From a virus: 32,888 nt of DNA. The notes below the pieces were generated by a model. The model was not told the DNA's origin, made no database searches, and saw only the letters and a list, made by a program, of their open reading frames with translations. A program made the translations under genes and the position numbers. Location of the stretch: IMG/VR virus record IMGVR_UViG_3300034418_005493, positions 1-32,888 of that record; one strand, 5' to 3'. How positions within the stretch are numbered: the stretch's first letter is position 1; each line of letters opens with the position of its first letter. Positions 1,837 to 20,663 of the stretch are shown one piece after another.

Positions 1837-4800
1837 ATGGCAATTAAAAAAATAAATACTGATTTACAAATTGAAGCTGGATTATTAGACGGCGATGGAA
1901 ATTCAGGTACAGCTAATCAAATACTGATTTCAACTGGCACCGGCGTTGACTGGGTTGACGGCTCAGGGTCGGGTATAATTGGTGGTCCTTACTTGCCACT
2001 TTCAGCTGGATCAAGTTATCCTTTGACAGATACTTTATACGGAACAAAAGCAACTTTTGGAGATACCAATATTGACGTAGCTACGGTAACAATTGAAGGA
2101 GGGCTAGCAGGTATTTTAGATATTTGGAGAAATGGAACAAACGCAAGTTATCAAGCAATAAGATTTAGAGATGACACAAACGCTAATACAGAAGCAAGTA
2201 TAGGATGGGGTTCTAATCAATTAAGATTAAACGGAACGAGTACTATTGTTGCAACAACTGGAGGCAGCGAAAGAATCCGTATTGATTCATCGGGCAACGT
2301 CGGGATTGGGACTACTAGTCCTTCACAAAAACTTGAGGTAGCTGGAAAGTTGTTAGTAGATAACGGAAACTTAGGAAGTATTGCGGGTGATACTATTTAC
2401 CATGCAGAAATAACCGGACAAAGACACCATTTAGATTTTAAAGAAGTTCGCACTGCAAATGGCTCGGATTGGCCTAATACCACTTATAAGCTTCAAATGC
2501 GAGTTGATTCTACAAATCATCAATCTATTGATTTTGTAAGTGACGCAAACGCTCAAGAGCACATTGATATATATACAAATAATCAAGTTTTTAATACTAG
2601 GTTTGACGCTAACGGCAACGTAGGGATCGGCACGACGGCACCTTTAGAGCCTCTGTCTGTATTTGCAGGTACTAATGAAAGCGTTTATGATGTTTTAGGT
2701 GTTTACAATTCCGTAACTGGAACAAGCGCTGTTGGCAAAGGAGCTGCTATAAGAATAGGCAAAGATGTTGATGGCGATTACTCCACAAAAATAGCTACAA
2801 TATACGAAGGTAATAATCCTAGTTTTTTACAACCTGCAATGGCTTTTTTTACAATGCGCGACACGTATTTAAAAGGCAGCGAAGTAGAAAGAATGCGTAT
2901 TACTTCAGGCGGTAACGTCGGGATCGGTACGGATAGTCCTAGTAGTTTACTACATATTAAAGGAGCAGACCCTATATTAACAATACAAGATACTTCTACT
3001 AGCACAACAAATGCAAGTTCTACTTTGCGTTTAGGAGAGTCAGGAGCTGGAGGAGTATTAGACGTTTATTGGGATATAAAACAAGCGTCGGATAGTCTTA
3101 ATACTCATTTAGAAATAAATCACAGCTCTAACGGAAATCGTTTTACAATACTTGACAGTGGTAACGTCGGGATCGGGACTACTAGTCCTAGTGCTAAGTT
3201 GCAGGTAGCGGGCACTGTAAGATACAATACACAGTTAAGTACTTCTAATTACTCGGGTCAAAAAGCTTTTATAGGTATTTCATCAGGTCAAGGCGCTCAA
3301 AAGTTTAAAATTTACAAAAATACAAATACATCTGACGGGTACGCAAGATTTAAAATAGACAGAGCCTTTGATTATGGTAATAATGAACAAATGGTTCAAG
3401 AAGCTATATTTCAAAGAAGGAATACAATTAAAAACTTTGTGTTTAAGTATGATGGAGATATAGCTACTCCAGATGACGTTTATTTAGAGGTATATGAATT
3501 AAGTAATGATCAAGTAGAAATATGGTTATGCGTTGATGATTATGCTCAACCTGTAGTTGAAGTTATATCAAATCCAGGTACATCTGAGATATTTACATCT
3601 CCATCAGCTGGAACACCCACTGGTACTTTAATTTATTCATCAAACCCTGATACTGAAACCCCTAATTGGAATAGTCATCAAGGCGTGATAACCGCTACAA
3701 CGTTTTTAGGTGACCTAAACGGTACAATAAACACAACAACTACAGGTGTAACTCAAACAGCTGGTAATAACTCTACGTTAATAGCAACAACTGCTTATGC
3801 AGATGCAGCAGCAGCAGCGGTAGATCCTTCAGGGGTTTATCTACCCCTTATTGGTGGTACTATGACTGGAGACTTGCTAATGGATGGTAAAGCAGGAGTT
3901 GGAAATGTTATTGGTCTTGCGACGGGAACTTCTTCTAATGCTATGTCTTTAAAGTTATATACTTACAACAATATAGACCCAGGCGGAGGATTAGGTACGA
4001 GTACTGGCAATATGATTCAAGCTGATTTAGGTTCAAATTTAGTTTTAAGACAGACAGCAAATGACGGTGATATTACATTTCAATCAGACGATGGAGCTGG
4101 CGGAATAGCTACATATTTAACTTTAGACGGAAGCAGTACTGACGCTTATTTTTCAAACCCAGGTAACGTCGGGATCGGAGTGACTAGTCCTGGAGCTAGG
4201 CTTGATGTTGCAGGTAACGGAAACGCAATACAGATAAGAAGGTCTAATGGATTTGCTTCTATAAAAGCACATTCTGACAATGGAGGTAATTTAGTTTTAG
4301 ATTCTTTATCAACAGCGGGAGCTGTTTTTCTAAACCATTACGTTAATAGACCTGTTTATATTGCTAGTGGAGGCGGCAACGTTGGTATCGGAACGACTAG
4401 TCCTGTCAGAAAGTTAACTGTTAATGGTAGCGCTAATGTATTTGACAGTTTGCTTATTAATTCTAACACACCTACAACTGGCACAACTACTGATGCAGAG
4501 CTAGTGATTCAAGCCAAAGGAAATCAAGCGGGAACAATAAGATCAAGTCAATGGTATTTTCAGACAATTCCTGATAGTATATATGGTAATTCAGCTTTTA
4601 GAATAGCTAAGAATTACGATGGAGGCGCTACAAGTGAGTTTATGCGCATAACCTCAGCAGGAAACGTCGGGATTGGGACTACAAGTTCTGATTACAAATT
4701 AGAAGTAAATGGCTCTTTAGGTGTTTCAAGAACAGACGGAATTGTTTTTGCTGGAAGCGCCGGCGCGGGCACTGGAAGTAAAATACTTTCAAATACATCT

Positions 4801-6849
4801 AATGATTTAATTTTTAGTACTGCTTTAACATCTATACCATATACCACAACTGAAAGAGTTCGTATTTTAAACAACGGCAACGTTGGGATCGGAACTACTT
4901 CACCAAGTGCTAAACTTGAAGTTAAAGATGGCTCTATAAGGCTAAATAATACTTCATCATATCCTTCAACAAATAAAATTACGGCAACTTGGAACGGCGA
5001 TACAAGTCCACCAATGGGTTCTATAGGGTGGGAACAAAATCCCGGGTTTATTGGGTCTGAATGGAGTCATTACAAGCAAACATCCCCTTACACTCAGGCT
5101 AGAATAAGGCTAATTGGTGATGCTAGTTCCGGCGGAATGTTTGTAAATCTTAATGGTTCAGATGTTTTTACAATCCAAACCTCATCAGGAAACGTCGGAA
5201 TTGGAACTACTAGTCCTAGTCAAAAACTTAGTGTTAGTGGAGACGCAACATTTACAGGTAGAATATACACGAACACTGGAGGGCTTGCTTCTGTAGGTAT
5301 ATTAGGAAAAGCTAAGACAGACGGATGGGCTGCTAGATATGACTCTAATAACGCAAATTTTTCTGGATTTTATTTCGATTCAGGTAACGATGCTAGTCTA
5401 ATTTTAAGAGATGACGCTGGTGGTGCAAATGTATATTTACAATCTGATTCTACTTCATACATAAATGGAGGTAATGTAGGAATTGGAACCATTAATCCTA
5501 GCACTACGTTAGAAGTTGTTGATACTTTTTCTGTACAAAGAACATCAAACGACAATGAAGGTTTCTATGTAACAGTTAGTGGTACTGATGCTAATGGAAT
5601 TGTAGAAACTTTTTACCAAGAAGATAGTGCCTCTAATTATGGCTATAGAAAAAGATATGATGGAAGTACTAACCTATACCAAGAGTTTATACATAACAAT
5701 AGTGCTACAGGAACAGAGGTATATAGAGTAGATAGAGGTACTAAAAATACGAGTATAGCAAACGGCAACGTTGGCATTGGGACTACCAGTCCTAGTTATA
5801 AATTAGATGTTGATGGTGAGGTTAGAGTTGGAGATAACCAAAAGCTAAAACTATGGGACAATGCATTTAGCGCAATTATAACTCCTTTAGACGCTCATTT
5901 AGCACTAACAACAACTAGAGCGCAAGATAATATATATTTTGATCCTGGCAACTCTACCAAAGTGGTTATGGAAGCTGGAGGTAACGTCGGGATTGGGACG
6001 ACTAGTCCTAATGCAAGACTACAAGTTAATAGCGGTGGAAGTGGTAACATTTCTAGTTTTCAAAGCAGTGCTACAGCTGTAGGCGAATATGCTGGAATAA
6101 CATTACACACTCAAACAAACAGTGGCGCCGATTGGTATGGTTCTGAAATAAGAAGTATTAACACACAAGGTACACCTAGCTCTTTAAATCCACGTCTTGG
6201 ATTTTTTACTCAAGATGATAATACGTATCTACCTGCAAATAGAACTGAAAAATTATCTATTTTAGGAAGCGGCAACGTCGGGATCGGGACGACAAGTCCT
6301 AGTTCTAAATTACACGTAAAAGATACGTCGCTGTCTGGAACACTTGCGTATTTCGAAGCTAGCGCTAGCGCTCAAGGAACTACAAATGTAAGAGTTGATT
6401 GTTTACAATATGGAATCGGTATAGCTTTTTTTAGAGATGGATCTGTTGGAGGTGGAGCTTGTTCTTTTAGAAATGATTCAGGGACACAAGTTGGTAGTAT
6501 AACTATAGGAACATCTAGCACATCTTATAATACAATTTCAGATTATAGATTAAAAGAAAACTTAATATCAATAACAGATGGTATTAATAGATTAAAACAA
6601 CTCAAACCAAAAAGGTTTAACTTTATAGGTGAAACACAAATCGTAGACGGATTTGTCGCGCATGAGGCTAAAGAAGTTGTTCCAGAATCTGTTACTGGAG
6701 AAAAAGATGGAGTTTTACCAAATGGAGACCCTGTTTATCAAGGTATAGATCAATCAAAAATAGTACCTTTATTAACAGCTGCTCTTCAAGAGGCTATAGC
6801 AAAAATAGAAGATTTAGAAAATAGAATACAAACATTAGAAAACAAATAA
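1837..6849 (+). CDS. Giant tail fibre/tailspike with C-terminal S74 intramolecular chaperone
   Basis: A 1670-residue protein starting three bases after the first fibre gene stops. The N-terminal ~60 residues hold GVDWVDGSGSG and YLPLSAG, typical of phage fibre attachment regions. The rest carries 13 GNVGIGTTSP-type repeats, with a long non-repeat block between those at 3163 and 4165. The C-terminus (residues 1568-1670) is a Peptidase_S74 domain: SDYRLKEN at the cleavage point, then KPKRFNF, DGFVAHEAKEVVPE, and a final coiled coil. In this family the domain trimerises and folds the fibre, then cuts itself off before the Ser. It is probably the main receptor-binding fibre, encoded next to a paralogue lacking the chaperone. 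Fibre identity is firm; host target is unknown. Confidence 0.92.
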   Translation: MAIKKINTDLQIEAGLLDGDGNSGTANQILISTGTGVDWVDGSGSGIIGGPYLPLSAGSSYPLTDTLYGTKATFGDTNIDVATVTIEGGLAGILDIWRNGTNASYQAIRFRDDTNANTEASIGWGSNQLRLNGTSTIVATTGGSERIRIDSSGNVGIGTTSPSQKLEVAGKLLVDNGNLGSIAGDTIYHAEITGQRHHLDFKEVRTANGSDWPNTTYKLQMRVDSTNHQSIDFVSDANAQEHIDIYTNNQVFNTRFDANGNVGIGTTAPLEPLSVFAGTNESVYDVLGVYNSVTGTSAVGKGAAIRIGKDVDGDYSTKIATIYEGNNPSFLQPAMAFFTMRDTYLKGSEVERMRITSGGNVGIGTDSPSSLLHIKGADPILTIQDTSTSTTNASSTLRLGESGAGGVLDVYWDIKQASDSLNTHLEINHSSNGNRFTILDSGNVGIGTTSPSAKLQVAGTVRYNTQLSTSNYSGQKAFIGISSGQGAQKFKIYKNTNTSDGYARFKIDRAFDYGNNEQMVQEAIFQRRNTIKNFVFKYDGDIATPDDVYLEVYELSNDQVEIWLCVDDYAQPVVEVISNPGTSEIFTSPSAGTPTGTLIYSSNPDTETPNWNSHQGVITATTFLGDLNGTINTTTTGVTQTAGNNSTLIATTAYADAAAAAVDPSGVYLPLIGGTMTGDLLMDGKAGVGNVIGLATGTSSNAMSLKLYTYNNIDPGGGLGTSTGNMIQADLGSNLVLRQTANDGDITFQSDDGAGGIATYLTLDGSSTDAYFSNPGNVGIGVTSPGARLDVAGNGNAIQIRRSNGFASIKAHSDNGGNLVLDSLSTAGAVFLNHYVNRPVYIASGGGNVGIGTTSPVRKLTVNGSANVFDSLLINSNTPTTGTTTDAELVIQAKGNQAGTIRSSQWYFQTIPDSIYGNSAFRIAKNYDGGATSEFMRITSAGNVGIGTTSSDYKLEVNGSLGVSRTDGIVFAGSAGAGTGSKILSNTSNDLIFSTALTSIPYTTTERVRILNNGNVGIGTTSPSAKLEVKDGSIRLNNTSSYPSTNKITATWNGDTSPPMGSIGWEQNPGFIGSEWSHYKQTSPYTQARIRLIGDASSGGMFVNLNGSDVFTIQTSSGNVGIGTTSPSQKLSVSGDATFTGRIYTNTGGLASVGILGKAKTDGWAARYDSNNANFSGFYFDSGNDASLILRDDAGGANVYLQSDSTSYINGGNVGIGTINPSTTLEVVDTFSVQRTSNDNEGFYVTVSGTDANGIVETFYQEDSASNYGYRKRYDGSTNLYQEFIHNNSATGTEVYRVDRGTKNTSIANGNVGIGTTSPSYKLDVDGEVRVGDNQKLKLWDNAFSAIITPLDAHLALTTTRAQDNIYFDPGNSTKVVMEAGGNVGIGTTSPNARLQVNSGGSGNISSFQSSATAVGEYAGITLHTQTNSGADWYGSEIRSINTQGTPSSLNPRLGFFTQDDNTYLPANRTEKLSILGSGNVGIGTTSPSSKLHVKDTSLSGTLAYFEASASAQGTTNVRVDCLQYGIGIAFFRDGSVGGGACSFRNDSGTQVGSITIGTSSTSYNTISDYRLKENLISITDGINRLKQLKPKRFNFIGETQIVDGFVAHEAKEVVPESVTGEKDGVLPNGDPVYQGIDQSKIVPLLTAALQEAIAKIEDLENRIQTLENK
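2296..6300 (+). repeat. Thirteen GNVGIGTTSP-type coding repeats in fibre gene 2
   Basis: 27-nt cores start at 2296, 2617, 2914, 3163, 4165, 4378, 4663, 4879, 5191, 5473, 5767, 5983 and 6274. Many keep GTC for Val and GGG for Gly, codons otherwise uncommon here, so conservation extends to DNA and not only protein. Some copies contain GGACT-ACT-AGTCC, a short inverted repeat. Spacing is mostly 210-320 nt, with one gap of about 1 kb after 3163. Confidence 0.9.
3238..3888 (+). other. Non-repeat block inside fibre 2 with an internal fibre-start-like module
   Basis: The usual repeat spacing is broken here. The first part encodes a beta-rich domain (AFIGISSG, ARFKIDRAFDYG, VYLEVYELSND, VEIWLCVDDYAQP). 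It is followed by TTTTGVTQTAGNNSTLIATT, an Ala-rich stretch (AYADAAAAAVD) and YLPLIGGTMTGDLLM, a phrase common near the start or joints of phage tail fibres. It resembles YLPLSAG near the N-terminus of the same protein, so fibre 2 may be a fusion of two fibres or an internal duplication. Boundaries are approximate. Confidence 0.55.
6538..6846 (+). other. Peptidase_S74 chaperone domain and predicted self-cleavage site
   Basis: The TCA codon at 6538-6540 encodes Ser1568 of SDYRLK, matching the S-D-x-R-x-K cleavage signature of endosialidase-type C-terminal chaperones, where the peptide bond before Ser is cut after trimer folding. The released piece would be 103 residues, ending in a heptad-like helix (LQEAIAKIEDLENRIQTLE). 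Confidence 0.85.
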
Positions 6850-6870
6850 AAACAAACAAAAACAAAAATT

Positions 6871-7242
6871 ATGATAACTTACGATTGGAATTGTAAAACA
6901 GTAGACGTACACCCTCAAGAAGAAGGTGAAACAGATGTAGTGTATAACGTGCATTGGATTGTAACAGGTGTATCAGATCAACTTGATGCGCAAGGTAATC
7001 CTTATTCAGCAACAAACATCGGAACTCAAGTAGTGCCTTTAGACCCTGAAACACCTTTTATACCTTTTGACGAACTAACTAATGAAATAGTTGTTGGTTG
7101 GACAAAAGATGCAATGGGTGAAGAGCAGGTTCAGAGTATTGAAGACAGTATAGCTTCTCAAATAGCTGAGCTAGAAAACCCTACGTCTATAACTATGACA
7201 ATAGGTGAACAACCTGAGCCACCAGTGACAATAGAGGAATAA
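6871..7242 (+). CDS. Conserved small protein downstream of fibres, function unknown
   Basis: A 123-residue acidic protein. The ATG follows an A-rich leader (AAAAATTATG) 21 bases after the fibre 2 stop. The N-terminal half looks like a small beta fold (YDWNCKTVDVHPQ, TDVVYNVHWIVTGV, YSATNIGTQVVPL); the C-terminal half has an amphipathic helix (EEQVQSIEDSIASQIAELE) and an acidic, Pro-rich tail. Similar short proteins beginning with a Y-W strand and containing a V-x-W strand are, as I recall, frequent beside fibre genes in marine phages and are annotated only as domains of unknown function. A fibre accessory or virion role is a guess from position. No enzyme motif is seen. Confidence 0.7.
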   Translation: MITYDWNCKTVDVHPQEEGETDVVYNVHWIVTGVSDQLDAQGNPYSATNIGTQVVPLDPETPFIPFDELTNEIVVGWTKDAMGEEQVQSIEDSIASQIAELENPTSITMTIGEQPEPPVTIEE

Positions 7243-7258
7243 GTAAATATTTCTTTTT

Positions 7259-7276
7259 ACAAGTGATGATATAAAC
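7259..7276 (+). promoter_or_regulatory. ACAAGTGAT intergenic motif, copy 1
   Basis: ACAAGTGATGATATAAAC lies in the 86-base gap between 7242 and 7329, one of the largest gaps in the window. Close matches occur in three other gaps (11331, 21572, 28980). It may be a phage promoter or processing element; the role is inferred only from recurrence. Nothing else clear is in this gap apart from a weak 4-bp GCAC/GTGC stem. Confidence 0.3.
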
Positions 7277-7328
7277 ATACCTGGCACGGGAAAGTGCATA
7301 ACCAAAATTAACATAATACCAAAACCAA

Positions 7329-7619
7329 ATGACTTTTTTTTACGAGACTACTTCTTGGAGTAGTCAACAACAACCAGATGAAAACCGTTTAAAATTGTGG
7401 AAGCATATTGCTGATAAAAAAAACTGGCGTATAGTGCAACTACCAAACGGTTATTACCAAACAGAATATCAAGACATTCGAAATGAAAACGAATGGAAAG
7501 ATGTTACAAGGCGTGAAACAATTGAAGCGGCTGAAACATCTATTGATAAGACTGTTGAACACTACAATAAGAAAGTTGAATTTATCAACGGACCAAAGGT
7601 AGTTAAAACCTTTAAATAA
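7329..7619 (+). CDS. Small hypothetical protein
   Basis: A 96-residue protein rich in charged and aromatic residues. It starts at ATG after AAAACCAA and begins MTFFYETTSWSSQQQPDENR. The middle (LWKHIADKKNWRIVQLPNGYYQTEYQD) looks like a helix followed by strands; the end is a helix (TIEAAETSIDKTVEHYNKK) and a strand (KVVKTFK). It has no signal peptide, membrane segment or catalytic motif. It sits alone between the fibre cluster and groEL, preceded by an 86-base gap that carries a possible regulatory motif, so it may be the first gene of the transcript that includes the chaperonins. I do not recognise the family. Confidence 0.65.
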   Translation: MTFFYETTSWSSQQQPDENRLKLWKHIADKKNWRIVQLPNGYYQTEYQDIRNENEWKDVTRRETIEAAETSIDKTVEHYNKKVEFINGPKVVKTFK

Positions 7620-7636
7620 ACCAACCATTTAAATAA

Positions 7637-7650
7637 AATTTAATTAAATT
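7637..7650 (+). promoter_or_regulatory. A/T leader without Shine-Dalgarno before groEL
   Basis: The 14 bases directly before the groEL ATG form a perfect A/T palindrome (AATTTAATTAAATT). Near-identical leaders (TTAATTAAATG) precede the genes at 22423 and 32595. This fits Bacteroidetes-type initiation that does not use a GGAGG site. Base composition alone makes A/T palindromes likely, so only the recurrence is notable. Confidence 0.4.
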
Positions 7651-9207
7651 ATGTCAGACGCAATTGTCAAGAATCTTAACTTTGGTGAAGAAGCCAGGGT
7701 TGAGGTATTTAAAGGAATAGAAAAACTCACAAAAGCTGTTAGCTCCACATTAGGGGCTAGCGGCAGATGTGTAATGCTAGAAGACGGATCAGGAAGACCA
7801 ATAATCACTAAAGACGGTGTAACGGTGGCTGATTCAATAATCTTACTAGATCCTGTAGAAAATATGGGTGCAACACTTTTAAAAGAAGCTGCACGCAAAA
7901 CAGTTCAAGAAGCAGGTGATGGGACTACAACAGCAACAGTGTTAGCTCACTCTATATTAAAAGAAGCTTACAAAGTAGCTGATAAAACAAACTCAAGAGA
8001 GTTAAAAAACGGTATCAACAAAGCTGTTAAAAATGTAGTTAAGTTTTTACAGCTAGCGTCTGTAGACGTTAAAGGTGATATGATAGATCAAATCGCTACA
8101 ATATCTACAAATAACGATGCTAAGCTTGGTAAAATCATAGCTGATGCTTTTAGAGCAGTTGATAACACGGGTGTGGTTATGATGGAAACAGCTTCAGATG
8201 GTAAAACATATGTTGAGGTTGTTGACGGTGTACAATATGAAAAAGGGCTTAAGAACTCACATTTTATAACTAACAAGGCTAGTAAAACAGCTGAGTTGGA
8301 TAAACCGCTAGTGCTTTTATTAGAATCACCAGTGGACACAATTAGGCAAATACAATCAGTGCTAGAGTATGTAATAAAAAACAACAAACCTTTGCTTATT
8401 ATAGGCGATTTAGAACAAGGTGTTTTATCGGCTCTGGCAATGAACAAGATGAAAGGTGCTATCAAAGTAAATGTAATTGATGCTCCAACATACGGCATTA
8501 ATAAACAACAAATGCTTCAAGACCTTTCACTTTTAACTGGCGCTACTATCATTAACGAAGACCTTGGAGATGATATGGACATGATACAGCCAGAAAACTT
8601 AGGAACTTGTATAAAAAGTGTAACATCACACGAGGATACAGTCTTACAAGTCGAAGAACCTTCTGAAGAAATTTTAAGTGTTATAGAAGAATTAAAGCAA
8701 CAAGTATTAGAAGAAAAAAACCCTAATAAAGTTGTAAAGCTGGAAAAAAGATTAGCAATGCTGTCAGCTAAAATAGCTATTGTAAAAGTAGGTGCTAACT
8801 CAGAAATAGAATTAAAAGAAAAAACAGATAGGGTTGAAGATGCTATCTGTGCTACTAAAGCTGCTATTAAAGAAGGGATTGTTCCTGGTGGTGGTATTGC
8901 TCTATTAAATGCCGCAACAAATTTAAAAGCTAAGTCTATTGGTGAGACAGTTTTACTAGAAGCGATAAAAGCGCCTTTTAAAACTATTTTAGAAAACGCT
9001 GGTGTCGAAGATTTTAAGATACCAACTAGAAAAGGACAAGGCTATAACGTGGTTACGGGAAAAATGGTAAATATGACAAAGTCAGGTATTATAGACCCAT
9101 TACTTGTCACCAAGAGCGCTCTTCAAAATGCAGCTTCCGTAGCAACAACGATTTTATCTACAGATTGTGTAATTAATAATTTAAGAATTAATGAAGGCAA
9201 TAGGTAG
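7651..9207 (+). CDS. groEL: Phage-encoded chaperonin GroEL (Hsp60)
   Basis: A 518-residue group I chaperonin, recognisable along its whole length. The equatorial ATP site is intact: KDGVTV with Asp55 (E. coli D52), AGDGTTTATV with Asp90 (D87), RVEDAICATKAAI with Asp397 (D398), and GIVPGGG at 409-415. Apical and intermediate segments follow the E. coli order (KPLLIIGD, LEKRLAMLSAKIAIVKVG). The C-terminus stops at ...INNLRINEGNR, without the GGM tail, which explains much of the shorter length (E. coli 548). By-eye alignment puts Leu200, His204, Phe205, Ala263 and Met264 at E. coli Y199, Y203, F204, V263 and V264, so the substrate and co-chaperonin rim has changed. GroES overlaps its 3' end. It probably forms a ring folding phage virion proteins; the client is unknown. 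Confidence 0.96.
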   Translation: MSDAIVKNLNFGEEARVEVFKGIEKLTKAVSSTLGASGRCVMLEDGSGRPIITKDGVTVADSIILLDPVENMGATLLKEAARKTVQEAGDGTTTATVLAHSILKEAYKVADKTNSRELKNGINKAVKNVVKFLQLASVDVKGDMIDQIATISTNNDAKLGKIIADAFRAVDNTGVVMMETASDGKTYVEVVDGVQYEKGLKNSHFITNKASKTAELDKPLVLLLESPVDTIRQIQSVLEYVIKNNKPLLIIGDLEQGVLSALAMNKMKGAIKVNVIDAPTYGINKQQMLQDLSLLTGATIINEDLGDDMDMIQPENLGTCIKSVTSHEDTVLQVEEPSEEILSVIEELKQQVLEEKNPNKVVKLEKRLAMLSAKIAIVKVGANSEIELKEKTDRVEDAICATKAAIKEGIVPGGGIALLNAATNLKAKSIGETVLLEAIKAPFKTILENAGVEDFKIPTRKGQGYNVVTGKMVNMTKSGIIDPLLVTKSALQNAASVATTILSTDCVINNLRINEGNR

Positions 9208-9451
9208 AAACATTATTATAAAAAAAGCTAAAGAAGGTACCACTAAAACAAAAGGTGGTCTTCTTTTAGCTGAGAATCACAGAGACGATATTAGATACGT
9301 TCAAGCAACAGTTTATTCTGTTGGTGATGAGATACAAGGTTTGAAGCAAAATGATATTATTCTATATGACCGACACGCTGGGCATAAAATAGAAGTTGAA
9401 AAAGAGGCTTACCATGTTATTAAAGTAGGTGACGTTGTAGTTGTTTTATGA
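9191..9451 (+). CDS. groES: Phage co-chaperonin GroES
   Basis: An 86-residue GroES-like protein starting 17 bases inside the groEL 3' end, so the two are translationally linked. Recognisable parts: first strand (AIGRNIIIKKA), a mobile loop around TKTKGGLLLAEN (compare the GGIVL of E. coli GroES that docks into GroEL), the core VQATVYSVGDE, KQNDIILYDRHAG and a last strand VIKVGDVVVVL. The loop forming the roof of the dome in E. coli seems shortened at DEIQGLKQ. It should cap the neighbouring GroEL ring, in the manner of T4 gp31. The order groEL then groES is the reverse of bacterial groESL operons. The next gene starts on its stop (ATGA). Confidence 0.92.
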   Translation: MKAIGRNIIIKKAKEGTTKTKGGLLLAENHRDDIRYVQATVYSVGDEIQGLKQNDIILYDRHAGHKIEVEKEAYHVIKVGDVVVVL

Positions 9452-9891
9452 GAAGACTAGAGGCTGATGATATAAAAGACCTCAACCTTATGAAGCACTA
9501 TCGCATTATAAGAAAATGGGCTTGCAGAAACAACAATCTAAACGATGCAGATCTAGAGTTATTAATATACTTAGACTGCATAGACATGTTTAGAAAGAAA
9601 GACTTTCAAGATGGAAGTTACTCTTACAGTTGGGACAATCGTCGGTGGAATAGACTATTAAAAGAAGGTTGGATAGTTGTGTGGAGACATAGAAATAGAA
9701 CCACGCAAAAATACCATATATATAAAACATCTATTAAATGTAAGCAACTTATAAAGCGTGTTTACAGAATGATGCTAGGTAAAGAAGATATACCAACCTC
9801 AGATGCTAATAGTATTATACGTGGTAATACATATACTGACAAGGTTTTAACAAAAGCAATATATAACGTCAACAAAGACAAATACAGATAA
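9448..9891 (+). CDS. Putative winged-helix (MarR-like) DNA-binding protein
   Basis: A 147-residue basic protein whose ATG overlaps the groES TGA by four bases, so it is probably co-translated with the chaperonin pair. Layout: a helix (DIKDLNLMKHYRIIRKWACR), a Leu-rich helix (NDADLELLIYLDCIDMF), a likely recognition segment (YSWDNRRWNRLLKEGWI), then a strand-turn-strand wing (VVWRHRNRTTQKYHIYKTS) and a basic C-terminal helix (KCKQLIKRVYRMML). This helix and wing order resembles MarR-type winged helices, where the fourth helix is followed by 'GWI'-like text and a wing of R/N/T residues. It could be a phage transcription regulator or a virion DNA-binding protein. The fold is inferred by eye; no target site is identified. 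Confidence 0.6.
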   Translation: MRRLEADDIKDLNLMKHYRIIRKWACRNNNLNDADLELLIYLDCIDMFRKKDFQDGSYSYSWDNRRWNRLLKEGWIVVWRHRNRTTQKYHIYKTSIKCKQLIKRVYRMMLGKEDIPTSDANSIIRGNTYTDKVLTKAIYNVNKDKYR

Positions 9892-9892
9892 A

Positions 9893-10321
9893 ATGAAAGG
9901 TAAACAATACGATTACAAAGAGGCGTACAATAAAAATCTAACGCCTAAAGCTAGATTACACTATCTAGAAAACGCTAGGCATGATCAGGACGCACCTACA
10001 AATATGTGTTCACCAAATCATTATGATTCACCGGCTAAACAAGTGGTGGATCCATTGGCCCAACAGCAGATGGTTCAACCAATGACTAATGTAACTCCAG
10101 TTGGTTCTAGTTTGGTAAATCCATTTCCACCACAAGCACAAGCAAACGCTCAAGGTATTTTTGGTGATCAAAAAATGATGCAAAATGCTGCTGGAGCTCC
10201 ATTTATGTACAAAGATGGTAGCCCATTAGAAGGCAACGCTTTTATTGGCGCTAAAATGGCAGCTGAAAAAGCAGGTAAAGACACGTTTGAAGTAGGAGGT
10301 AAAACATTTCAAGTAAAATAA
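9893..10321 (+). CDS. Small low-complexity protein with SPLEGNAF motif, possibly virion-associated
   Basis: A 142-residue protein starting two bases after the previous stop. The N-terminus is charged (KGKQYDYKEAYNKNLTPKARLHYLENARHDQ). The middle is poorly structured and rich in Pro, Gln, Asn and Met. The C-terminus has GAPFMYKDGSPLEGNAFIGA followed by AEKAGKDTFEVGGKTFQVK, a helix and beta hairpin. As I recall, similar C-terminal texts (GNAF...AkeAGkd.FeVgGk) occur in small proteins of marine phages. It may be a minor virion or assembly protein. Neighbouring small genes share SPL-like peptides (see 10328 and 10528). No function can be assigned. Confidence 0.6.
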   Translation: MKGKQYDYKEAYNKNLTPKARLHYLENARHDQDAPTNMCSPNHYDSPAKQVVDPLAQQQMVQPMTNVTPVGSSLVNPFPPQAQANAQGIFGDQKMMQNAAGAPFMYKDGSPLEGNAFIGAKMAAEKAGKDTFEVGGKTFQVK

Positions 10322-10327
10322 TAAGAT

Positions 10328-10528
10328 ATGAAAGATATTAAACAACTAAAAGCTGACCTAGCGGGTCAAGTAGGTGAAAACGCTATATGGGACGGTCCAT
10401 TAAGTAAAGAAGGTTTTCCAATGGGTAAAGGTTCTAGCTCAGGTAAAAATGGACTAGAAGTGTCTAAAGCACCATTTGAGTGTGGGCACGGAACACCGAT
10501 TACTTCACGAGCTAAAGCATTTAAATAA
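10328..10528 (+). CDS. Very small hypothetical protein (66 aa)
   Basis: It begins MKDIKQLKADLAGQ and ends ECGHGTPITSRAKAFK, with a Gly/Ser/Lys-rich centre including WDGPLSKEGFPMGKG. The stop overlaps the next ATG by one base (TAATG), indicating coupled translation. Size, composition and the GPLSKEG phrase link it to its two neighbours, which contain SPLEG and SPLKG. A single Cys next to a His (ECGHG) is not enough to propose a metal site. The coding call rests on tight packing between real genes and its typical leader (AATAAGATATG). Confidence 0.55.
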   Translation: MKDIKQLKADLAGQVGENAIWDGPLSKEGFPMGKGSSSGKNGLEVSKAPFECGHGTPITSRAKAFK

Positions 10529-11007
10529 TGAGTTCTCCATTTGCATTTAAGTTTTTAGGTAAAAAACCTTTTACTAGCAAAACTGTAAACCCAGAAGCTG
10601 GTGGTAAAGACTATGAAGCTATGGGTGATGCTGCTAGAAAAAGAGAGCAAAAGCTTAGTGCTGAAACAGGCGGTGTTGATTACGAAGCTAAATTAAAAGT
10701 TCAAAAAGAAATGTCACCACTTAAAGGTGCTTATTCTTCTGGAGCTGGCGGGTCTGTATACGTGTCTACGGCTGGAGCTTTTCAAAATCTTCAAAACAAA
10801 ATATCAGCAGGTATTCAAGCTGATTTAGCTAATAGAAAAGCTAAAGCCGCTGCTAAAGCTAAAGCCGCGAAAAAATCAGCTAAGAAAAAGAAAAAATTTC
10901 AAAAAGAATCCTCTAAAGTTAGTGGCGATATGAAAAAGTTTGAATCTTTTACTTTTGATACTAGCAACATGTTAAACTACGACCCAAGCAAAGGTTTAGA
11001 CCAATAA
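10528..11007 (+). CDS. Basic Ala/Lys-rich protein with SPLKG motif
   Basis: A 159-residue protein. The N-terminus SSPFAFKFLGKKPF is followed by two similar phrases, EAGGKDYEA and ETGGVDYEA, a small internal repeat about 30 residues apart. Next comes QKEMSPLKGAYSSGAGG, then a long Ala/Lys-rich helix (residues about 98-130: KAKAAAKAKAAKKSAKKKKK) that could bind DNA or the inner capsid surface, and a C-terminal segment ending SNMLNYDPSKGLDQ. It starts on the stop of the previous gene and ends three bases before the next. A minor virion protein or DNA-condensing cargo protein is plausible from composition only. I do not recognise a family. Confidence 0.6.
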   Translation: MSSPFAFKFLGKKPFTSKTVNPEAGGKDYEAMGDAARKREQKLSAETGGVDYEAKLKVQKEMSPLKGAYSSGAGGSVYVSTAGAFQNLQNKISAGIQADLANRKAKAAAKAKAAKKSAKKKKKFQKESSKVSGDMKKFESFTFDTSNMLNYDPSKGLDQ

Positions 11008-11009
11008 AT

Positions 11010-11318
11010 ATGGCATTTAAAATAACTCCACCTTACTCTATGGATAATACTCCAATTTACAATGTAAATATGGAAGATGGCGTTATGGGTAAAGCTAATA
11101 AAAATGGTACTATAATTTTAAATAAAGATTTAGACGCCTCACAGTGTAATAAAGTTATTGCACACGAGAAAGTTCATATAGACCAAATGAAACGTGGAGA
11201 CCTTGATTACGACGATAAATACGTATATTGGAAAGGTAAAAAATACTCAAGAGCACAAATGCAAGAAGGTGCTAAAAACCTGCCTTGGGAGGCTGAGGCT
11301 TATAGAAAAGTAAAGTAA
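11010..11318 (+). CDS. Small putative HExxH zinc metallopeptidase
   Basis: A 102-residue protein. A short beta region (NGTIILNKDL) precedes a helix with the zinc motif IAHEKVHIDQMKRGDL: His52 and His56 as ligands and Glu53 as catalytic base. A second helix near the end, LPWEAEAYRK, offers Glu94 or Glu96 as third ligand; an HExxHxxQ helix followed by a Pro-x-E-x-EA helix is a layout seen in small gluzincin-like phage and eCIS-associated domains. It has no signal peptide or membrane segment. Clustered with small probable virion proteins, it could trim a virion protein or act during entry or release; it is not a recognisable peptidoglycan hydrolase. The motif is clear, the activity is inferred. 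Confidence 0.65.
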   Translation: MAFKITPPYSMDNTPIYNVNMEDGVMGKANKNGTIILNKDLDASQCNKVIAHEKVHIDQMKRGDLDYDDKYVYWKGKKYSRAQMQEGAKNLPWEAEAYRKVK

Positions 11319-11330
11319 CAAATAATATAA

Positions 11331-11344
11331 ACAAGTAATAATAA
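11331..11344 (+). promoter_or_regulatory. ACAAGTAAT intergenic motif, copy 2
   Basis: ACAAGTAATAATAA lies in the 30-base gap before the gene at 11349 and resembles ACAAGTGATNNTA at 7259 and 21572. A TATAAAC hexamer-like string occurs just before it and just after the copy at 7259. Role unknown; possible promoter or processing site. Confidence 0.25.
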
Positions 11345-11348
11345 GAAA

Positions 11349-11642
11349 ATGTACAAACAAGCACCAGGCAGAATGAATATGCCTAAAACAGGAAGAGGAA
11401 TACCAACAAATATGGTTAACCCTATAAAGCAAGATGATAAGGTTAATAATAAAACTAAAGAAAAAGTTAGCGCTAGAAACAACCAAGCTGCTTCTGATAG
11501 AGTAGTAGAAAAAGCAGCTGCGAAAAAACTTAAACAAAAAGTTAAAGACGTTGCTGGGGCTGGAGAACACTCAAGACAACGAAGCTTAGCTAGAGGGTCT
11601 CAACGAGGAACTTTCTTTGGTTTAGAAAAACTTTTTGATTAA
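11349..11642 (+). CDS. Small basic hypothetical protein
   Basis: A 97-residue basic protein. The N-terminus is Pro/Gly/Met-rich and probably unfolded (YKQAPGRMNMPKTGRGIP). It is followed by a Lys/Ala-rich amphipathic helix (DRVVEKAAAKKLKQKVKDVA) and an Arg/Ser-rich stretch (HSRQRSLARGSQRG) before FFGLEKLFD. It has no catalytic motif or membrane segment. It lies 30 bases after the metallopeptidase gene and 12 bases before the holin. Composition suggests nucleic-acid or capsid interior contact, like the other small genes in this cluster, but this is only inference. An overlapping minus-strand frame is hydrophobic because it is the antisense of this Lys-rich gene and is not a gene. Confidence 0.55.
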   Translation: MYKQAPGRMNMPKTGRGIPTNMVNPIKQDDKVNNKTKEKVSARNNQAASDRVVEKAAAKKLKQKVKDVAGAGEHSRQRSLARGSQRGTFFGLEKLFD

Positions 11643-11654
11643 TAATAGTTTTAA

Positions 11655-12056
11655 ATGAAAAAAATTTGGCAATGGCTTACGGGTTCCGTCATAAAAGAAG
11701 TTGGCGAGGTTTTAGATAATCTTACAACTACTAAAGAAGAGAAACTAGAAGCACAGCGTCTTATTACAGAGATTCTTGAGAAAGCTGACAAAGAAGCTCA
11801 AGAGCAAGTTACAAAAAGATGGGAGTCAGATATGCAGTCTGATTCCTTCTTGTCTAAAAATATACGCCCATTAGTACTTATATACTTAACAGTTATATTT
11901 ACTATATGTGCGTTTTTCGATGGAAACATCGGAGAATTTAAAATAGCAGAAGAGTATATCCCAATATTCCAAACTCTTCTTGTTACAGTTTATGGAGCTT
12001 ACTTTGTAGGTAGAACTTGGGAAAAAGCAAAATCAATAACAAATAACAAAAATTAA
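11655..12056 (+). CDS. Holin of the 3TM / gene-transfer-agent type
   Basis: A 133-residue membrane protein. Residues 1-20 can form an amphipathic helix (MKKIWQWLTG...), followed by a charged coiled segment (TTKEEKLEAQRLITEILEKADKEAQEQ). Then comes the family phrase KRWESDMQSDSFLSKNIRP, a membrane helix at about 70-88 (LVLIYLTVIFTICAFF) and another at about 101-119, ending YGAYFVGRTWEKAK. The W-x-S-D...S-x-NIRP...YGxYFxGRT-EK pattern is characteristic of 3TM-type holins. It should sit in the host inner membrane and time lysis. No endolysin is seen in the window, so the partner lies elsewhere or is unrecognised. Confidence 0.88.
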   Translation: MKKIWQWLTGSVIKEVGEVLDNLTTTKEEKLEAQRLITEILEKADKEAQEQVTKRWESDMQSDSFLSKNIRPLVLIYLTVIFTICAFFDGNIGEFKIAEEYIPIFQTLLVTVYGAYFVGRTWEKAKSITNNKN

Positions 12057-12066
12057 ATTAAATCAA

Positions 12067-12315
12067 ATGGCAAAAATTAAAGAAGAACAGTTAAAAGAAA
12101 TCGTTGAATTACAAGGTAAACTTGGTCAAATTATTTCTAACATTGGTGTTTTAGAATCCCAAAAACATGGTTTACTACACGATGTAGCTGCAGCAAACAA
12201 AGAATTAGAAGACTTTAAAGCAAAACTAGAAGAAGAGTACGGAGCTATTTCTGTAGATCTTTCAACTGGTGAGTATACTGAAGTTAAAGAAGAAGAAGCT
12301 AAAGCAGAGGAATAA
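12067..12315 (+). CDS. Coiled-coil protein downstream of holin
   Basis: An 82-residue acidic protein, almost entirely one helix pair: residues 3-55 have heptad-like spacing (LKEIVELQGKLGQIISNIGVLESQKHGLLHDVAAANKELEDFKAKLEEE), then a short beta-like phrase (YGAISVDLSTGEY) and an acidic tail. This helix plus 'YG.isiDl.tGey' layout recurs, as I recall, in small phage proteins annotated as prefoldin-like or hypothetical. It has no signal peptide or lipobox, so a spanin role is not supported despite its place after the holin. Its stop overlaps the next ATG by one base (TAATGG). Function unknown. Confidence 0.65.
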   Translation: MAKIKEEQLKEIVELQGKLGQIISNIGVLESQKHGLLHDVAAANKELEDFKAKLEEEYGAISVDLSTGEYTEVKEEEAKAEE

Positions 12316-12542
12316 TGGATTCAGTCATTAGAAAAATCAGCATTGGATCTGATTACAAAAATGACGCCATGCACTATTCTGTAGGCCAACAGGTTTACGG
12401 AGGTCACGAGATAGCTTATATTTTATTTAACGAAAAAGATTCGTCATATAATATACATATTAAAAAAAATAACGAGGTTTTACCTTGGAAAAAGTTTAAT
12501 AAGAATATGGCGGTATCTATAGAGTACGATTTAGAGTATTAA
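12315..12542 (+). CDS. Small conserved hypothetical protein
   Basis: A 75-residue protein coupled by one-base overlaps to both neighbours (TAATG at each end). It begins DSVIRKISIGSDYKNDAMHYSVGQQVYGGHEIAYILF, then a charged turn (NEKDSSYNIHIKKNNEVLPWKKFNKNM) and a last strand AVSIEYDLEY. The all-beta look and the W-K-x-F-N-x-N-M...SIEYD ending match, from memory, a family of small marine-phage proteins of unknown function. The tight coupling to the double-GroES gene suggests co-expression with it. No catalytic or binding motif is visible. Confidence 0.65.
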   Translation: MDSVIRKISIGSDYKNDAMHYSVGQQVYGGHEIAYILFNEKDSSYNIHIKKNNEVLPWKKFNKNMAVSIEYDLEY

Positions 12543-13147
12543 TGAATTCTTTATATGACTTTATAGTAAAGCCAGTTGGAGATAAATACAGTAATACAAT
12601 TAAAGTTGGTGATAAAGACTTAGTTGTTAATACTAAAATTGAAAACTGGAAATTTGTAAACAGAATAGCAGAGGTGGTTCAAGTGCCTTTAGCTTTTAAA
12701 TCTGTTATTAGCAAAGGTGATGAAGTTGTAATACATCAAAATGTATTTAGAACTTTTTATGATATGAGAGGCGAAAAGAAAAAGAGTAGGTCGTTTTTAA
12801 AAGACGATCTACATCTTTGCGCCCTTGACCAAATATATCTTTGTAAGAACAATGGTGTTTGGCGTACTTTAAACGATAGATGTTTTATTTCACCTATAAA
12901 AGAAAAAGACAATCTAAAAGGTGATAAAGAACGCAGCCTTGTTGGTATACTAAAATATAGTAATAGCTCGCTAGAAGCGCTAGGAATAAACCCAGGAGAT
13001 GTTGTAGGCTTCAAGCCTAATAGCGAATGGGAATTTTTAGTTGATGGTGAGCGTCTTTACTGTATGAAATCTAATGATATTGTAATTAAGTATGAACGTA
13101 AAGGAGACGAAGAAAAATATAATCCAAGCTGGGCGCAAGGCGGTTGA
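12542..13147 (+). CDS. Tandem double GroES-like protein (putative second co-chaperonin)
   Basis: A 201-residue protein in which I read two GroES-like beta modules. Module 1 (about 4-103): first strand LYDFIVKPVG, a flexible VGDKDLVVNTK loop where the mobile loop would sit, RIAEVVQVPL, SKGDEVVIHQNVF, and LHLCALDQIYLCK. Module 2 (about 108-187): RTLNDRCFISPIKEK, RSLVGILKYS, NPGDVVGFKPNSE, and VDGERLYCMKSNDIVIKYE. These match, in order, E. coli GroES PLHDRVIVKRKE, RGEVLAVG, KVGDIVIFNDG and IDNEEVLIMSESDILAIVE. No obvious GGIVL-type loop is present in module 2, so it may be structural or a specialised cap. The 3' end overlaps the next gene by 56 bases. The homology is a by-eye inference. Confidence 0.65.
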   Translation: MNSLYDFIVKPVGDKYSNTIKVGDKDLVVNTKIENWKFVNRIAEVVQVPLAFKSVISKGDEVVIHQNVFRTFYDMRGEKKKSRSFLKDDLHLCALDQIYLCKNNGVWRTLNDRCFISPIKEKDNLKGDKERSLVGILKYSNSSLEALGINPGDVVGFKPNSEWEFLVDGERLYCMKSNDIVIKYERKGDEEKYNPSWAQGG

Positions 13148-13367
13148 AGAGCTAATTAAAGTAGCTAAAGAACCAATTGTAGATTCAGATGATGATATTT
13201 CAGCGGACAGACTTAAAAATGCTGCAGCTACAAAAAAACTCGCTATATTCGATGCTTTTGAAATATTAACTAGAATAGAAAACGAGCAAGAGCTGTTAGA
13301 AGATAAGCCTAAAGAAGTTAAAAAAGAAAAAACTTTTAAAGGGTTTGCAGAAGGGAGGTCTAAATAA
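13092..13367 (+). CDS. Probable terminase small subunit
   Basis: A 91-residue protein immediately upstream of terL, whose ATG overlaps its stop by one base. It is mostly helical: NIIQAGRKAVEELIKVAKEPI, then an acidic turn (DSDDDISADRLKNAAATKKLAIFDAFEILTRIENEQELLE) and a basic, Lys/Glu-rich tail ending FKGFAEGRSK. The 'AGRKAVEELI...aAdrlknAAatKKlAifDAfeIl.RI' text resembles small proteins next to terL in marine podoviruses and myoviruses that are taken as small terminases. In that role it would recognise viral DNA and load TerL. The start lies 56 bases inside the double-GroES gene; no later in-frame ATG would remove the overlap. Function is mainly inferred from position. Confidence 0.65.
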   Translation: MNVKETKKNIIQAGRKAVEELIKVAKEPIVDSDDDISADRLKNAAATKKLAIFDAFEILTRIENEQELLEDKPKEVKKEKTFKGFAEGRSK

Positions 13368-15577
13368 TGTACGAGCAAACGTTATATAAAGTAATAGATG
13401 ACTATATAAAACCACATACTGTAGCTAAAATGAATAAAGCTAAAAAGTGGGAGTATGGTTATAATGAAGATTACGATGTTGTTGTCATCAGTAAGACTGG
13501 TGAGATAGGTGAGATATACGAAATACAAAATCTTAAAATAGCTTTACCTAAAGCTAATAATGTAAAAAAATTTGAAGGTAATAGGTGGAAATATACAGAA
13601 TATCCTAAAGAACTTAAGAAAATAAAGTCTGTGTTTGATTGGGAGGAATACCCAGTAGACTTTAAAGAAAAATGGTATGATTACATCGATAGTGAATTTA
13701 ATAAAAGAGAACAAGGGTTTTGGTTCTATAATAAAAGTGTGGCTACTTACATTACTGGCTCTCATTATATGTACTTGCAGTGGAGCAAAATTGACGTTGG
13801 GCAGCCAGACTTTAGGGAATCAAACAGATTATTCTTTATATTCTGGGAGGCTTGTAAAGCCGACCCACGCTCTTACGGAATGTGCTATCTTAAAAACCGT
13901 CGGTCAGGATTTTCGTTTATGTCTTCGGCAGAAACCGTTAACGTGGCGACAATTACGTCAGATGCACGGTACGGTATCTTGTCAAAGTCTGGCCCTGATG
14001 CTAAGAAGATGTTCACGGATAAAGTCGTACCGATATCTGTCAACTACCCGTTCTTTTTCAAACCCATCCAGGACGGTATGGACAGGCCAAAAACCGAGCT
14101 TGCCTACAGAGTTCCTGCGACCAAATACACAAGGAAAAAACTTGAAACCAACGAAAAGCTTCAAGAACTTGACGGGCTCGACACAACGATCGACTGGAAG
14201 AACACAGGGGACAACTCGTACGATGGGGAGAAATTAAAGCTATTAGTACACGATGAAAGTGGAAAGTGGGAGAGACCTAATAATATATTAAATAACTGGC
14301 GAGTTACAAAAACTTGTTTAAGATTAGGTAGTAGAATTATTGGTAGATGCATGATGGGAAGTACATCAAACGCTCACGATAAAGGAGGTAAAAACTTTAA
14401 AAAACTTTATGATGACTCAGATGTTACTCAAAGAAACGCCAATGGACAGACTCGCAGCGGATTATATTCTTTGTTCATACCTATGGAATGGAACTACGAG
14501 GGATACATTGACGCTTATGGGTTACCTGTATTCGACACACCAAGTAAACCGGTTGAAGGACCTCAAGGTGAAAAGATAAAAATAGGTGTAATAGAATACT
14601 GGGAGAACGAAGTAGAGGGATTAAAGCAAGATCAAGATGGTCTTAATGAATTTTATAGACAGTTTCCACGCACGGAAAAACACGCTTTTAGAGATGAAAC
14701 AAAACAATCTTTGTTTAATCTAACTAAAATATACGAGCAAATAGATTTTAATGAAGACATGCGTAACTCTATAAATGTTACAAAAGGTAGTTTTCAATGG
14801 GAAAATGGCGAGCAAGACAGTAGAGTTGTATTTGCCCCAAATAAAAACGGTAGGTTTTTAATATCTTGGATACCACCTCTTCATTTGCAAAATAAAAAAT
14901 ATAGCAAGAACGGTAGGTTTTACCCCGGTAATGAACATATAGGCGCGTTTGGCTGTGACCCTTATGATATATCAGGTACAGTAGATAAAAGAGGTTCTAA
15001 CGGATCTCTTCACGGTTTAACTAAGTTTTCAATGGAAGACGCGCCGCCAAATCATTTTTTCTTAGAATATATAGCAAGACCACAAACAGCTGAAATATTT
15101 TTTGAAGATGTTTTAATGGCTTGTGTTTTTTACGGTATGCCAATACTTGCTGAAAATAATAAACCAAGACTTTTATATTACTTTAAAAAAAGAGGTTATA
15201 GAGGTTTTGCAATGAACAGACCAGATAGAAGTAGAAATAAACTATCTGTAACAGAAAGAGAGATAGGTGGAATACCAAACTCTAGTGAAGACATTAAACA
15301 GGCACACGCCGCGGCTATAGAATCTTACATAGAAAACTTTGTTGGATTAAAAGAAACAGGCTATGGTGATATGTACTTTCAAAGAACGCTTGAAGATTGG
15401 GCTAAATTTAATATTAATAATAGAACATCGCATGATGCTTCTATTAGCTCTGGTTTAGCACTAATGGCTTGTAACAAACATAGGTATACACCTATAAACA
15501 AAAGAAAAACGGAACCTGTTGACATAGGTATCAAAAGATACGACAACAGTGGATATACATCAAAAATAATAAGTTAA
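13367..15577 (+). CDS. terL: Terminase large subunit
   Basis: A 736-residue packaging motor. ATPase half: a degenerate Walker A KNRRSGFS (176-183), Walker B KLLVHDE with Asp296/Glu297, and coupling motif GSTSN (331-335). Nuclease half (RNase H-like): Asp531 in FGCDPYD, Glu595 in ILAENN and Asp690 in SHDASIS form the expected acidic triad. It cuts concatemers and pumps DNA through the portal encoded next door (zero-base spacing). Unusually for this window, a Shine-Dalgarno-like GGAGG lies 8 bases before the ATG, inside the terS 3' end. Residues about 165-288 are encoded by a markedly GC-richer stretch (13861-14230) with different codon choice, although the protein stays in frame. Confidence 0.95.
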   Translation: MYEQTLYKVIDDYIKPHTVAKMNKAKKWEYGYNEDYDVVVISKTGEIGEIYEIQNLKIALPKANNVKKFEGNRWKYTEYPKELKKIKSVFDWEEYPVDFKEKWYDYIDSEFNKREQGFWFYNKSVATYITGSHYMYLQWSKIDVGQPDFRESNRLFFIFWEACKADPRSYGMCYLKNRRSGFSFMSSAETVNVATITSDARYGILSKSGPDAKKMFTDKVVPISVNYPFFFKPIQDGMDRPKTELAYRVPATKYTRKKLETNEKLQELDGLDTTIDWKNTGDNSYDGEKLKLLVHDESGKWERPNNILNNWRVTKTCLRLGSRIIGRCMMGSTSNAHDKGGKNFKKLYDDSDVTQRNANGQTRSGLYSLFIPMEWNYEGYIDAYGLPVFDTPSKPVEGPQGEKIKIGVIEYWENEVEGLKQDQDGLNEFYRQFPRTEKHAFRDETKQSLFNLTKIYEQIDFNEDMRNSINVTKGSFQWENGEQDSRVVFAPNKNGRFLISWIPPLHLQNKKYSKNGRFYPGNEHIGAFGCDPYDISGTVDKRGSNGSLHGLTKFSMEDAPPNHFFLEYIARPQTAEIFFEDVLMACVFYGMPILAENNKPRLLYYFKKRGYRGFAMNRPDRSRNKLSVTEREIGGIPNSSEDIKQAHAAAIESYIENFVGLKETGYGDMYFQRTLEDWAKFNINNRTSHDASISSGLALMACNKHRYTPINKRKTEPVDIGIKRYDNSGYTSKIIS
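13861..14230 (+). other. GC-rich compositional island inside terL
   Basis: Hand counts give 170 G+C in 360 bases (47%) for 13861-14220, against 14/60 at 14281-14340, 16/60 at 13681-13740 and 15/60 at 13561-13620. Codons such as CCG, CGG, ACG, TCG, GAC and AAG become frequent, then vanish after about 14230. The edges fall just before Walker A and just before Walker B. A long second-frame opening here is a by-product of the raised GC. Confidence 0.8.
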
Positions 15578-19199: not shown

Positions 19200-20663
19200 A
19201 TGGCTAATGTAAGTCCTGTGTTTGGAAGTATTATTCCATCACAAAAACAACAAGCGCTAGAAACAAACTACCTTAACTTTACAGATGGTACTAGTGACTT
19301 CGCTCAGCAATATTTACCAGAAATCTACGAAGCTGAAGTAGAGCGTTATGGAAACAGAACGTTATCTGGATTTTTACGAATGGTAGGCGCTGAAATGCCT
19401 ATGACATCTGATCAAGTAGTTTGGTCTGAGCAGAACCGTTTACACATTTCTTATAACGGAGTAACAGCTGCTATCTCTGGAACAACACCTAACATCGTGT
19501 CAACATTGACTATCCCTGTTGGTGGATCTGGTGCTACTTTAGTAGAAAACGTAGTATCTCCTGGTTCAACTATCGTTGTAACTAATGGAGCAAACGGAGA
19601 TGAGCTAAAGTGTTACGTTGTTGCTTCTGGCGCGACTCCAGGATCTGGACTAGCTGCTGGCGAGTTAACTGTAAAACCTTACACTCAAGAAGCTCTTGAT
19701 GGAGCTGGTGCAGGTGAAGTTGATTTAGTAACTGGTTCTCCAGCTTTAAAAATCTTTGTATACGGTTCTGAATATGGAAAAGGAACAACAGATTCTAACA
19801 GAATTTCTGTAGACCCTTCTTTTACTCAATATTCTAATTCACCTATCATCATCAAAGATAAATTTGCTATCAATGGTTCTGACACTGCTCAGATCGGTTG
19901 GGTAGAAGTTGCTACTGAAGACGGAACTGGAGGATTCTTGTGGTACTTAAAAGCTGAGTCTGAAACTAGACTACGTTTTGAGGATTACTTAGAAATGTCT
20001 GTAGTTGAAGGAGAATTAAAATCTGGAACATCTACTGCTTCTGTTAAAGGTACTGAAGGTCTTTTTGCTGCTATCAAAGATAGAGGTAATGTATTGGCTG
20101 GATTCTCTGCAACACCTGCAAACGCTTTAAGTGAATTTGATTCAATTCTTAAAAACTTAGACACTCAAGGTGCTATTGAAGAAAACATGTTATTCTTAAA
20201 CAGAAACACTGCTTTAGAATTTGACGATATGCTAGCTGGTATTTCTGCTGGAAACAACGGTGGTACTGCTTACGGTTTGTTTGAAAACTCTGAAGAAATG
20301 GCTTTAAATCTTGGATTTAGCGGTTTCCGTAGAGGATCTTACGATTTCTACAAAACTGATTGGAAATATTTGAACGATGCTTCTACTCGTGGTGGTTTAG
20401 CAACATCTAGTATTGATGGTGTTTTAGTACCAGCTGGAACTTCAACTGTTTACGATCAAATCCTAGGAACTAACATCCGTCGTCCTTTCTTACACGTTCG
20501 TTACAGAGCTTCACAAGCCGACGATCGTAGAATGAAAAACTGGATTACTGGTTCTGTAGGAGGAGCTTTCACTTCAGATCTTGATGCAATGGAAGTACAC
20601 TTCCTTTCTGAAAGATGTCTAGTGGTTCAAGGAGCAAACAACTTTGTATTGTTTACTGCCTAA
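19200..20663 (+). CDS. Major capsid protein
   Basis: A 487-residue protein 13 bases after the scaffold gene. The N-terminus (GSIIPSQKQQALETNYLNFTDG) is followed by a helix and loop (YLPEIYEAEVERYGNRTLSGFLRMVGAEMPMTSDQVVW, about 38-75) and a beta-rich region that looks like an inserted surface domain (about 85-240). The C-terminal 65 residues are dense in hydrophobic strands (FLHVRYRASQADDRRMKNW, AMEVHFLSERCLVVQGANNFVLF), as in HK97-fold capsids. Codon choice differs from neighbours: about half of its Arg codons are CGT where others use AGA, and Phe is often TTC, fitting very high expression. A strong hairpin follows the stop. Confidence 0.9.
   Translation: MANVSPVFGSIIPSQKQQALETNYLNFTDGTSDFAQQYLPEIYEAEVERYGNRTLSGFLRMVGAEMPMTSDQVVWSEQNRLHISYNGVTAAISGTTPNIVSTLTIPVGGSGATLVENVVSPGSTIVVTNGANGDELKCYVVASGATPGSGLAAGELTVKPYTQEALDGAGAGEVDLVTGSPALKIFVYGSEYGKGTTDSNRISVDPSFTQYSNSPIIIKDKFAINGSDTAQIGWVEVATEDGTGGFLWYLKAESETRLRFEDYLEMSVVEGELKSGTSTASVKGTEGLFAAIKDRGNVLAGFSATPANALSEFDSILKNLDTQGAIEENMLFLNRNTALEFDDMLAGISAGNNGGTAYGLFENSEEMALNLGFSGFRRGSYDFYKTDWKYLNDASTRGGLATSSIDGVLVPAGTSTVYDQILGTNIRRPFLHVRYRASQADDRRMKNWITGSVGGAFTSDLDAMEVHFLSERCLVVQGANNFVLFTA

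Follow-up and report, generated by a model that had tools for sequence, protein, structure and literature searches.

A phage-owned group I chaperonin set with a cognate lid, folding late virion proteins, is the likely explanation of a pair of overlapping genes for GroEL and GroES that were found in a 32,888-base IMG/VR record (here called the window). The record is probably a genome fragment, and its source is a marine phage, probably with a host among the Flavobacteria. The coding sequences are intact and under purifying selection, the catalytic site is conserved, the synteny is fixed and the folds are predicted; hydrolysis of ATP, assembly into rings, pairing with the lids, the time of expression and the clients are inferred.

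The groEL gene (7651-9207, plus strand, ATG start) encodes a 518-residue protein that was matched by Pfam PF00118 over residues 26-509 (6e-59), by PHROG 5725 (3e-134) and by the NCBIfam model NF000592 at 475 bits, above the cut-off of 397, and the NCBIfam subfamily model NF009487 was also passed. The cut-off of the stricter NCBIfam GroEL equivalog TIGR02348, which is a naming threshold for bacterial orthologues and no functional criterion, was not reached (464.8 versus 582.1 bits). Residues Asp55, Asp90 and Asp397 align with D52, D87 and D398 (E. coli numbering) and are invariant in 79 of 79 clade GroELs, as are nearly all of the other nucleotide-site residues examined. Scanning of IMG/VR with GroEL gave 437 relatives, the top match being 97% identical, and the median dN/dS of the gene was 0.14. 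The protein is a full-length three-domain Cpn60 with its ATP-site aspartates, and the intact phage GroEL described in the initial annotation was borne out by the family matches and by the conservation of all three aspartates. Judged by sequence, the subunits would form an ATP-driven ring with ATPase activity that folds client proteins.

The groES gene (9191-9451, plus strand, ATG start) encodes 86 residues and scored 48 bits against PF00166 (gathering score 21.1). Its mobile-loop motif is GGLLL, in which the GG pair, L24 and L26 are invariant in the clade, and its median dN/dS was 0.22. The AF2 model has a pLDDT of 85 and its top Foldseek matches were all GroES/Cpn10 (up to 8e-6), so that the product is, by predicted fold, a Cpn10 with a GG-hydrophobic mobile loop; through this loop it would cap the GroEL ring. 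The roof hairpin segment, typical of most but not all GroES/Cpn10 proteins, was not found in the alignment of the phage GroES, and a short bacterial GroES (L226) is likewise without it. Phage T4 is not known to encode a GroEL, and its gp31 works with host GroEL. Like the GroES of the window, gp31 is a phage co-chaperonin without roof loops (PMC6318259).

The end of groEL and the start of groES, both on the plus strand, overlap by 17 nt (9191-9207), in agreement with the initial annotation, and the overlap is kept across the clade. Where the two genes are neighbours in related virus contigs, GroEL comes first in 98 of 98 pairs, almost all of them overlapping, with lengths of 17 nt (62 pairs), 20 nt (25), 1 nt (5), 23 nt (3) and others. 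Overlaps of this kind are nothing unusual in so compact a genome, other overlapping neighbours in the window being found at 9451/9448, 10528/10528, 12315/12315, 12542/12542, 13147/13092 and 13367/13367. The coupled translation that had been deduced from the overlap was dropped as a special feature, since overlaps are general in this genome and the neighbouring genes overlap too. Scans for sigma-70 promoters and terminators over 6800-13400 gave no more hits than did shuffles. In one related contig (L012), groES and the 201-aa gene described below are almost identical to those of the window (dS ~0.1) and groEL has diverged much further (dN 0.06, dS 0.67), a contrast that suggests recombination within the chaperonin region.

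A second co-chaperonin-like gene, overlooked in the initial annotation, was found at 12542-13147 (plus strand). Its 201-aa product was matched by PHROG 13932 'co-chaperonin GroES' (4e-22); it fell under the Pfam Cpn10 gathering score (14.3 versus 21.1), which its relatives in phi38:1 and phi13:2 pass. In profile comparison with bacterial GroES, the C half matched at an E value of 9e-7 and the N half was not significant. No PDB sequence was matched significantly when searched with a profile of the protein, and the assignment was therefore made on PHROG, hhalign and fold. The top PDB match of the AF2 model (pLDDT 87) was the Chlamydomonas tandem Cpn20 7ekq_R (204 columns, E 2e-5, TM 0.53, 14% identity), followed by single GroES structures; among viral models its best match was the 200-aa cpn10 of phi18:3. 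Two GroES-like barrels are thus predicted, the C domain by sequence and fold and the N domain by predicted structure only, in the likeness of chloroplast Cpn20, which carries two GroES-like domains in tandem and is the best fold match, albeit at about 14% identity (PMC5780408).

The 201-aa gene is present in 18 of 18 long contigs of the clade, with a median dN/dS of 0.21. The gene or its homologue directly precedes the terminase gene in phi38:1, Elemovirus and Panino; a single gene separates the two in the window, in the Manatee Spring podovirus and in phi13:2. The last of these (Pachyviridae) has the TerL-adjacent cpn10 homologue, yet no GroEL was detectable in its genome; therefore the tandem protein does not need a GroEL from the phage in order to act, and presumably works with that of the host or has a structural role. 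A strict co-occurrence of GroEL and tandem cpn10 was dropped on the same observation and on Gundel, which has neither. The protein beside the terminase is the more widely shared component of the system, and would probably serve as an alternative lid for phage or host GroEL. It is somewhat unlikely that it is no co-chaperonin but a structural protein of the virion or of packaging in which the GroES barrel has been put to another use. Such a role would fit the constant site beside the terminase across families, the lack of a clear GGIVL-type loop and an N half unlike GroES by sequence, but the best structural match over the full length is a tandem co-chaperonin, and the Pfam Cpn10 matches of the phi38:1 and phi13:2 relatives also speak against it.

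In Flavobacterium phage MaF61, a 187-aa ORF at 2412-2975 has two Pfam Cpn10 stretches and lies directly upstream of a divergent GroEL; by sequence it is another putative tandem phage co-chaperonin, and the profile of the 201-aa family did not detect it. No report of a tandem GroES in phages was found in the literature searched, the coverage of which was incomplete.

The apical GroES/substrate face of the phage GroEL is replaced at seven usual positions (Y199L/I, S201N, Y203H, L234Q, V263A, V264M and E257G, E. coli numbering), six of the replacements being invariant across the clade and position 199 always being Leu or Ile, and F204, L237, L259 and N265 are kept. Taken with the invariant GroES loop, this changed face is what one would expect if GroEL and GroES were a matched pair serving clients of their own. 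At the inter-ring interface, with gap placement in the alignment uncertain by a few residues, the E434 and S463/V464 positions are gapped in 79 of 79 clade members, E461 is retained in 25 of 79 and R452 is mostly Lys. The GGM tail is absent from the clade GroELs in the same alignment of 79 sequences. The shortened inter-ring region possibly reflects weak or absent inter-ring contact, and because of it a double ring is uncertain. Positions R452, E461, S463 and V464 are altered in the single-ring mutant SR1, and their being changed or gapped in the clade would suit a chaperonin that works as a single ring or as an open holdase, like that of phage EL, while host GroEL would be the main partner of GroES and of the tandem protein. 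We consider this unlikely. It gains from the phage EL chaperonin, which forms single rings with ATP and makes no use of E. coli GroES (PMC7185714), and from the phi13:2 tandem protein without a phage GroEL; the constant adjacency of groEL and groES and the invariant mobile loop argue instead for a cognate lid. Quite unlikely, too, is a three-part system with one GroEL, which may be a single ring, and two lids for it, the roofless GroES and a Cpn20-type double barrel linked to head assembly, of which the double barrel would have come first, on host GroEL, and the phage GroEL-GroES would have been gained later.

In the initial annotation, the reversed order of the two genes was taken to argue against recent capture of a host operon. 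The absence of recent capture is upheld by identity and tree, but gene order was dropped as evidence of origin because it flips among annotated phages, being EL-ES in Elemovirus, the Manatee Spring podovirus and Panino and ES-EL in Calle, DAC16 and MaF61. In 80 bacterial loci examined, the order was ES-EL wherever both genes were present, and EL-ES was seen in none. Reversal of the order characterises the lineage and by itself says little on origin.

Phylogeny was computed for 45 GroELs, 26 bacteria among them, with long branches limiting placement; the GroES alignment had too few columns to place that protein. The window clade formed its own long-branched group (100/99) with a stem of 1.31 changes per column, outside all 26 bacteria sampled, and grouped with Elemovirus and Panino (97/95), so that the nesting in one bacterial groESL clade that had been named as a refutation was not what the GroEL tree gave. 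In the same tree the GroEL of DAC16 nests inside Bacteroidales and that of the Vibrio phage KT1024 in gammaproteobacteria. AU tests did not reject grouping of the clade with Bacteroidota (p 0.54), with Flavobacteriia (p 0.26) or with a narrower pair (p 0.16), and an old capture from a Bacteroidota host is compatible with them. Recent host capture was set aside because the distance to bacterial GroELs is large (about 40-44% identity of the window GroEL to the closest ones, with the long branch). Capture of a flavobacterial groESL operon in recent times, followed by re-ordering, is in particular very unlikely: close relatives infect Flavobacteriia, and the AU tests did not reject the Bacteroidota and Flavobacteriia groupings, but at such an identity, and with such a stem and a well-supported clade outside the sampled bacteria, only an old capture fits. 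The chaperonin set would be an old, vertically kept trait of marine phages related to Elemovirus/Pervagoviridae, which probably infect Flavobacteria.

Several phage relatives share parts of this arrangement. Elemovirus (Flavobacterium phage, MT497071) has groEL then groES adjacent, and cpn10 directly before the terminase; unlike in the window, its EL-ES pair is on the strand opposite the structural genes and its GroEL is only about 40% identical. The Manatee Spring podovirus (MW202828) has the closest terminase (64%) and portal (52%), a groEL followed by an overlapping cpn10 and a homologue of the 201-aa protein near the terminase, but its GroEL is 34% identical and lies ~9 kb from the terminase. 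Maribacter phage Panino and the Cellulophaga phages phi38:1/Calle (Pervagoviridae) have GroEL and the TerL-adjacent cpn10, and in Panino and Calle GroES is near GroEL; they differ from the window in that Calle has ES-EL with a gene between and Panino a small ORF between. GroEL and GroES of Panino have been reported (PMC11590407), cpn10 is a core Pervagoviridae protein (Bartlau 2021, PMC8776804) and the joint presence of GroEL and GroES in phages has been noted (PMC7185714). Nishimura 2017 (PMC5332604) described GroEL in 36 environmental flavophage genomes ('group 2'), related to the Cellulophaga phage GroELs; we found neither GroES nor gene order nor the tandem protein discussed there. In the 'phages' collection, GroEL was matched in 282 of 50,697 records, some of them plainly bacterial contigs. 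Phage GroEL had been called uncommon outside large phages and virioplankton sequences in the initial annotation; given these records and the 36 flavophage genomes, rarity was overstated for this lineage. The pair is not unique, close phage relatives with the same set being already known, and it illustrates a known arrangement well; of the parts found, those least described are the tandem co-chaperonin and the remodelled apical domain surface of GroEL.

The bacterial contigs among the matches in the 'phages' collection are exemplified by H1 and H136 (Salmonella, 500 kb), so that phage GroEL counts there are inflated. GroEL was also seen a few kb upstream of the terminase in the Crassvirales phage cr108_1, and between two glycosyltransferase genes in a Manatee Spring siphovirus.

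The placement of the pair in a packaging/fibre cluster was confirmed, with fibres upstream and terminase and portal downstream, all on the plus strand. The 1670-aa tail fibre (1837-6849; PHROG 18345) contains numerous repeats of the GNVGIGTTSP type and, at its C terminus, an S74 endosialidase-chaperone domain (PF13884, above the gathering score), an intramolecular chaperone. Downstream are the large terminase subunit (13367-15577, 736 aa; PHROG 6681, 3e-164), the portal protein (15578-17965, 795 aa; PHROG 6547, 1e-146) and a virion structural protein (19200-20663, 487 aa; PHROG 13704, 3e-93), which by position is the probable major capsid protein. Between fibre and groEL, a DUF7936/PHROG 7802 protein is encoded at 6871-7242. 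A small putative metallopeptidase-like protein with weak DUF6782 and PHROG 87 matches is encoded at 11010-11318.

Lying among structural genes, the chaperonin genes would probably be co-expressed with them. Dedicated folding of virion proteins, as had been proposed, is plausible, but not for the fibres, because the 1670-aa chain exceeds the cage and the complete fibre has its own S74 domain; terminase and portal are likewise disfavoured as encapsulated clients because they are too big for the GroEL cage. By size and location, the 487-aa structural protein is the best-sized candidate client. The chaperonin would fold phage late proteins, most plausibly this ~54 kDa capsid-like protein, by analogy with T4 gp23, which is 56 kDa (PMC6318259).

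With cultured relatives in Elemovirus and Calle/phi38:1, the system offers a tractable case of what a chaperonin of its own gives a phage whose host already has one, and the clade-wide changes of the GroEL client face, together with the Cpn20-like double lid, are concrete and testable features.
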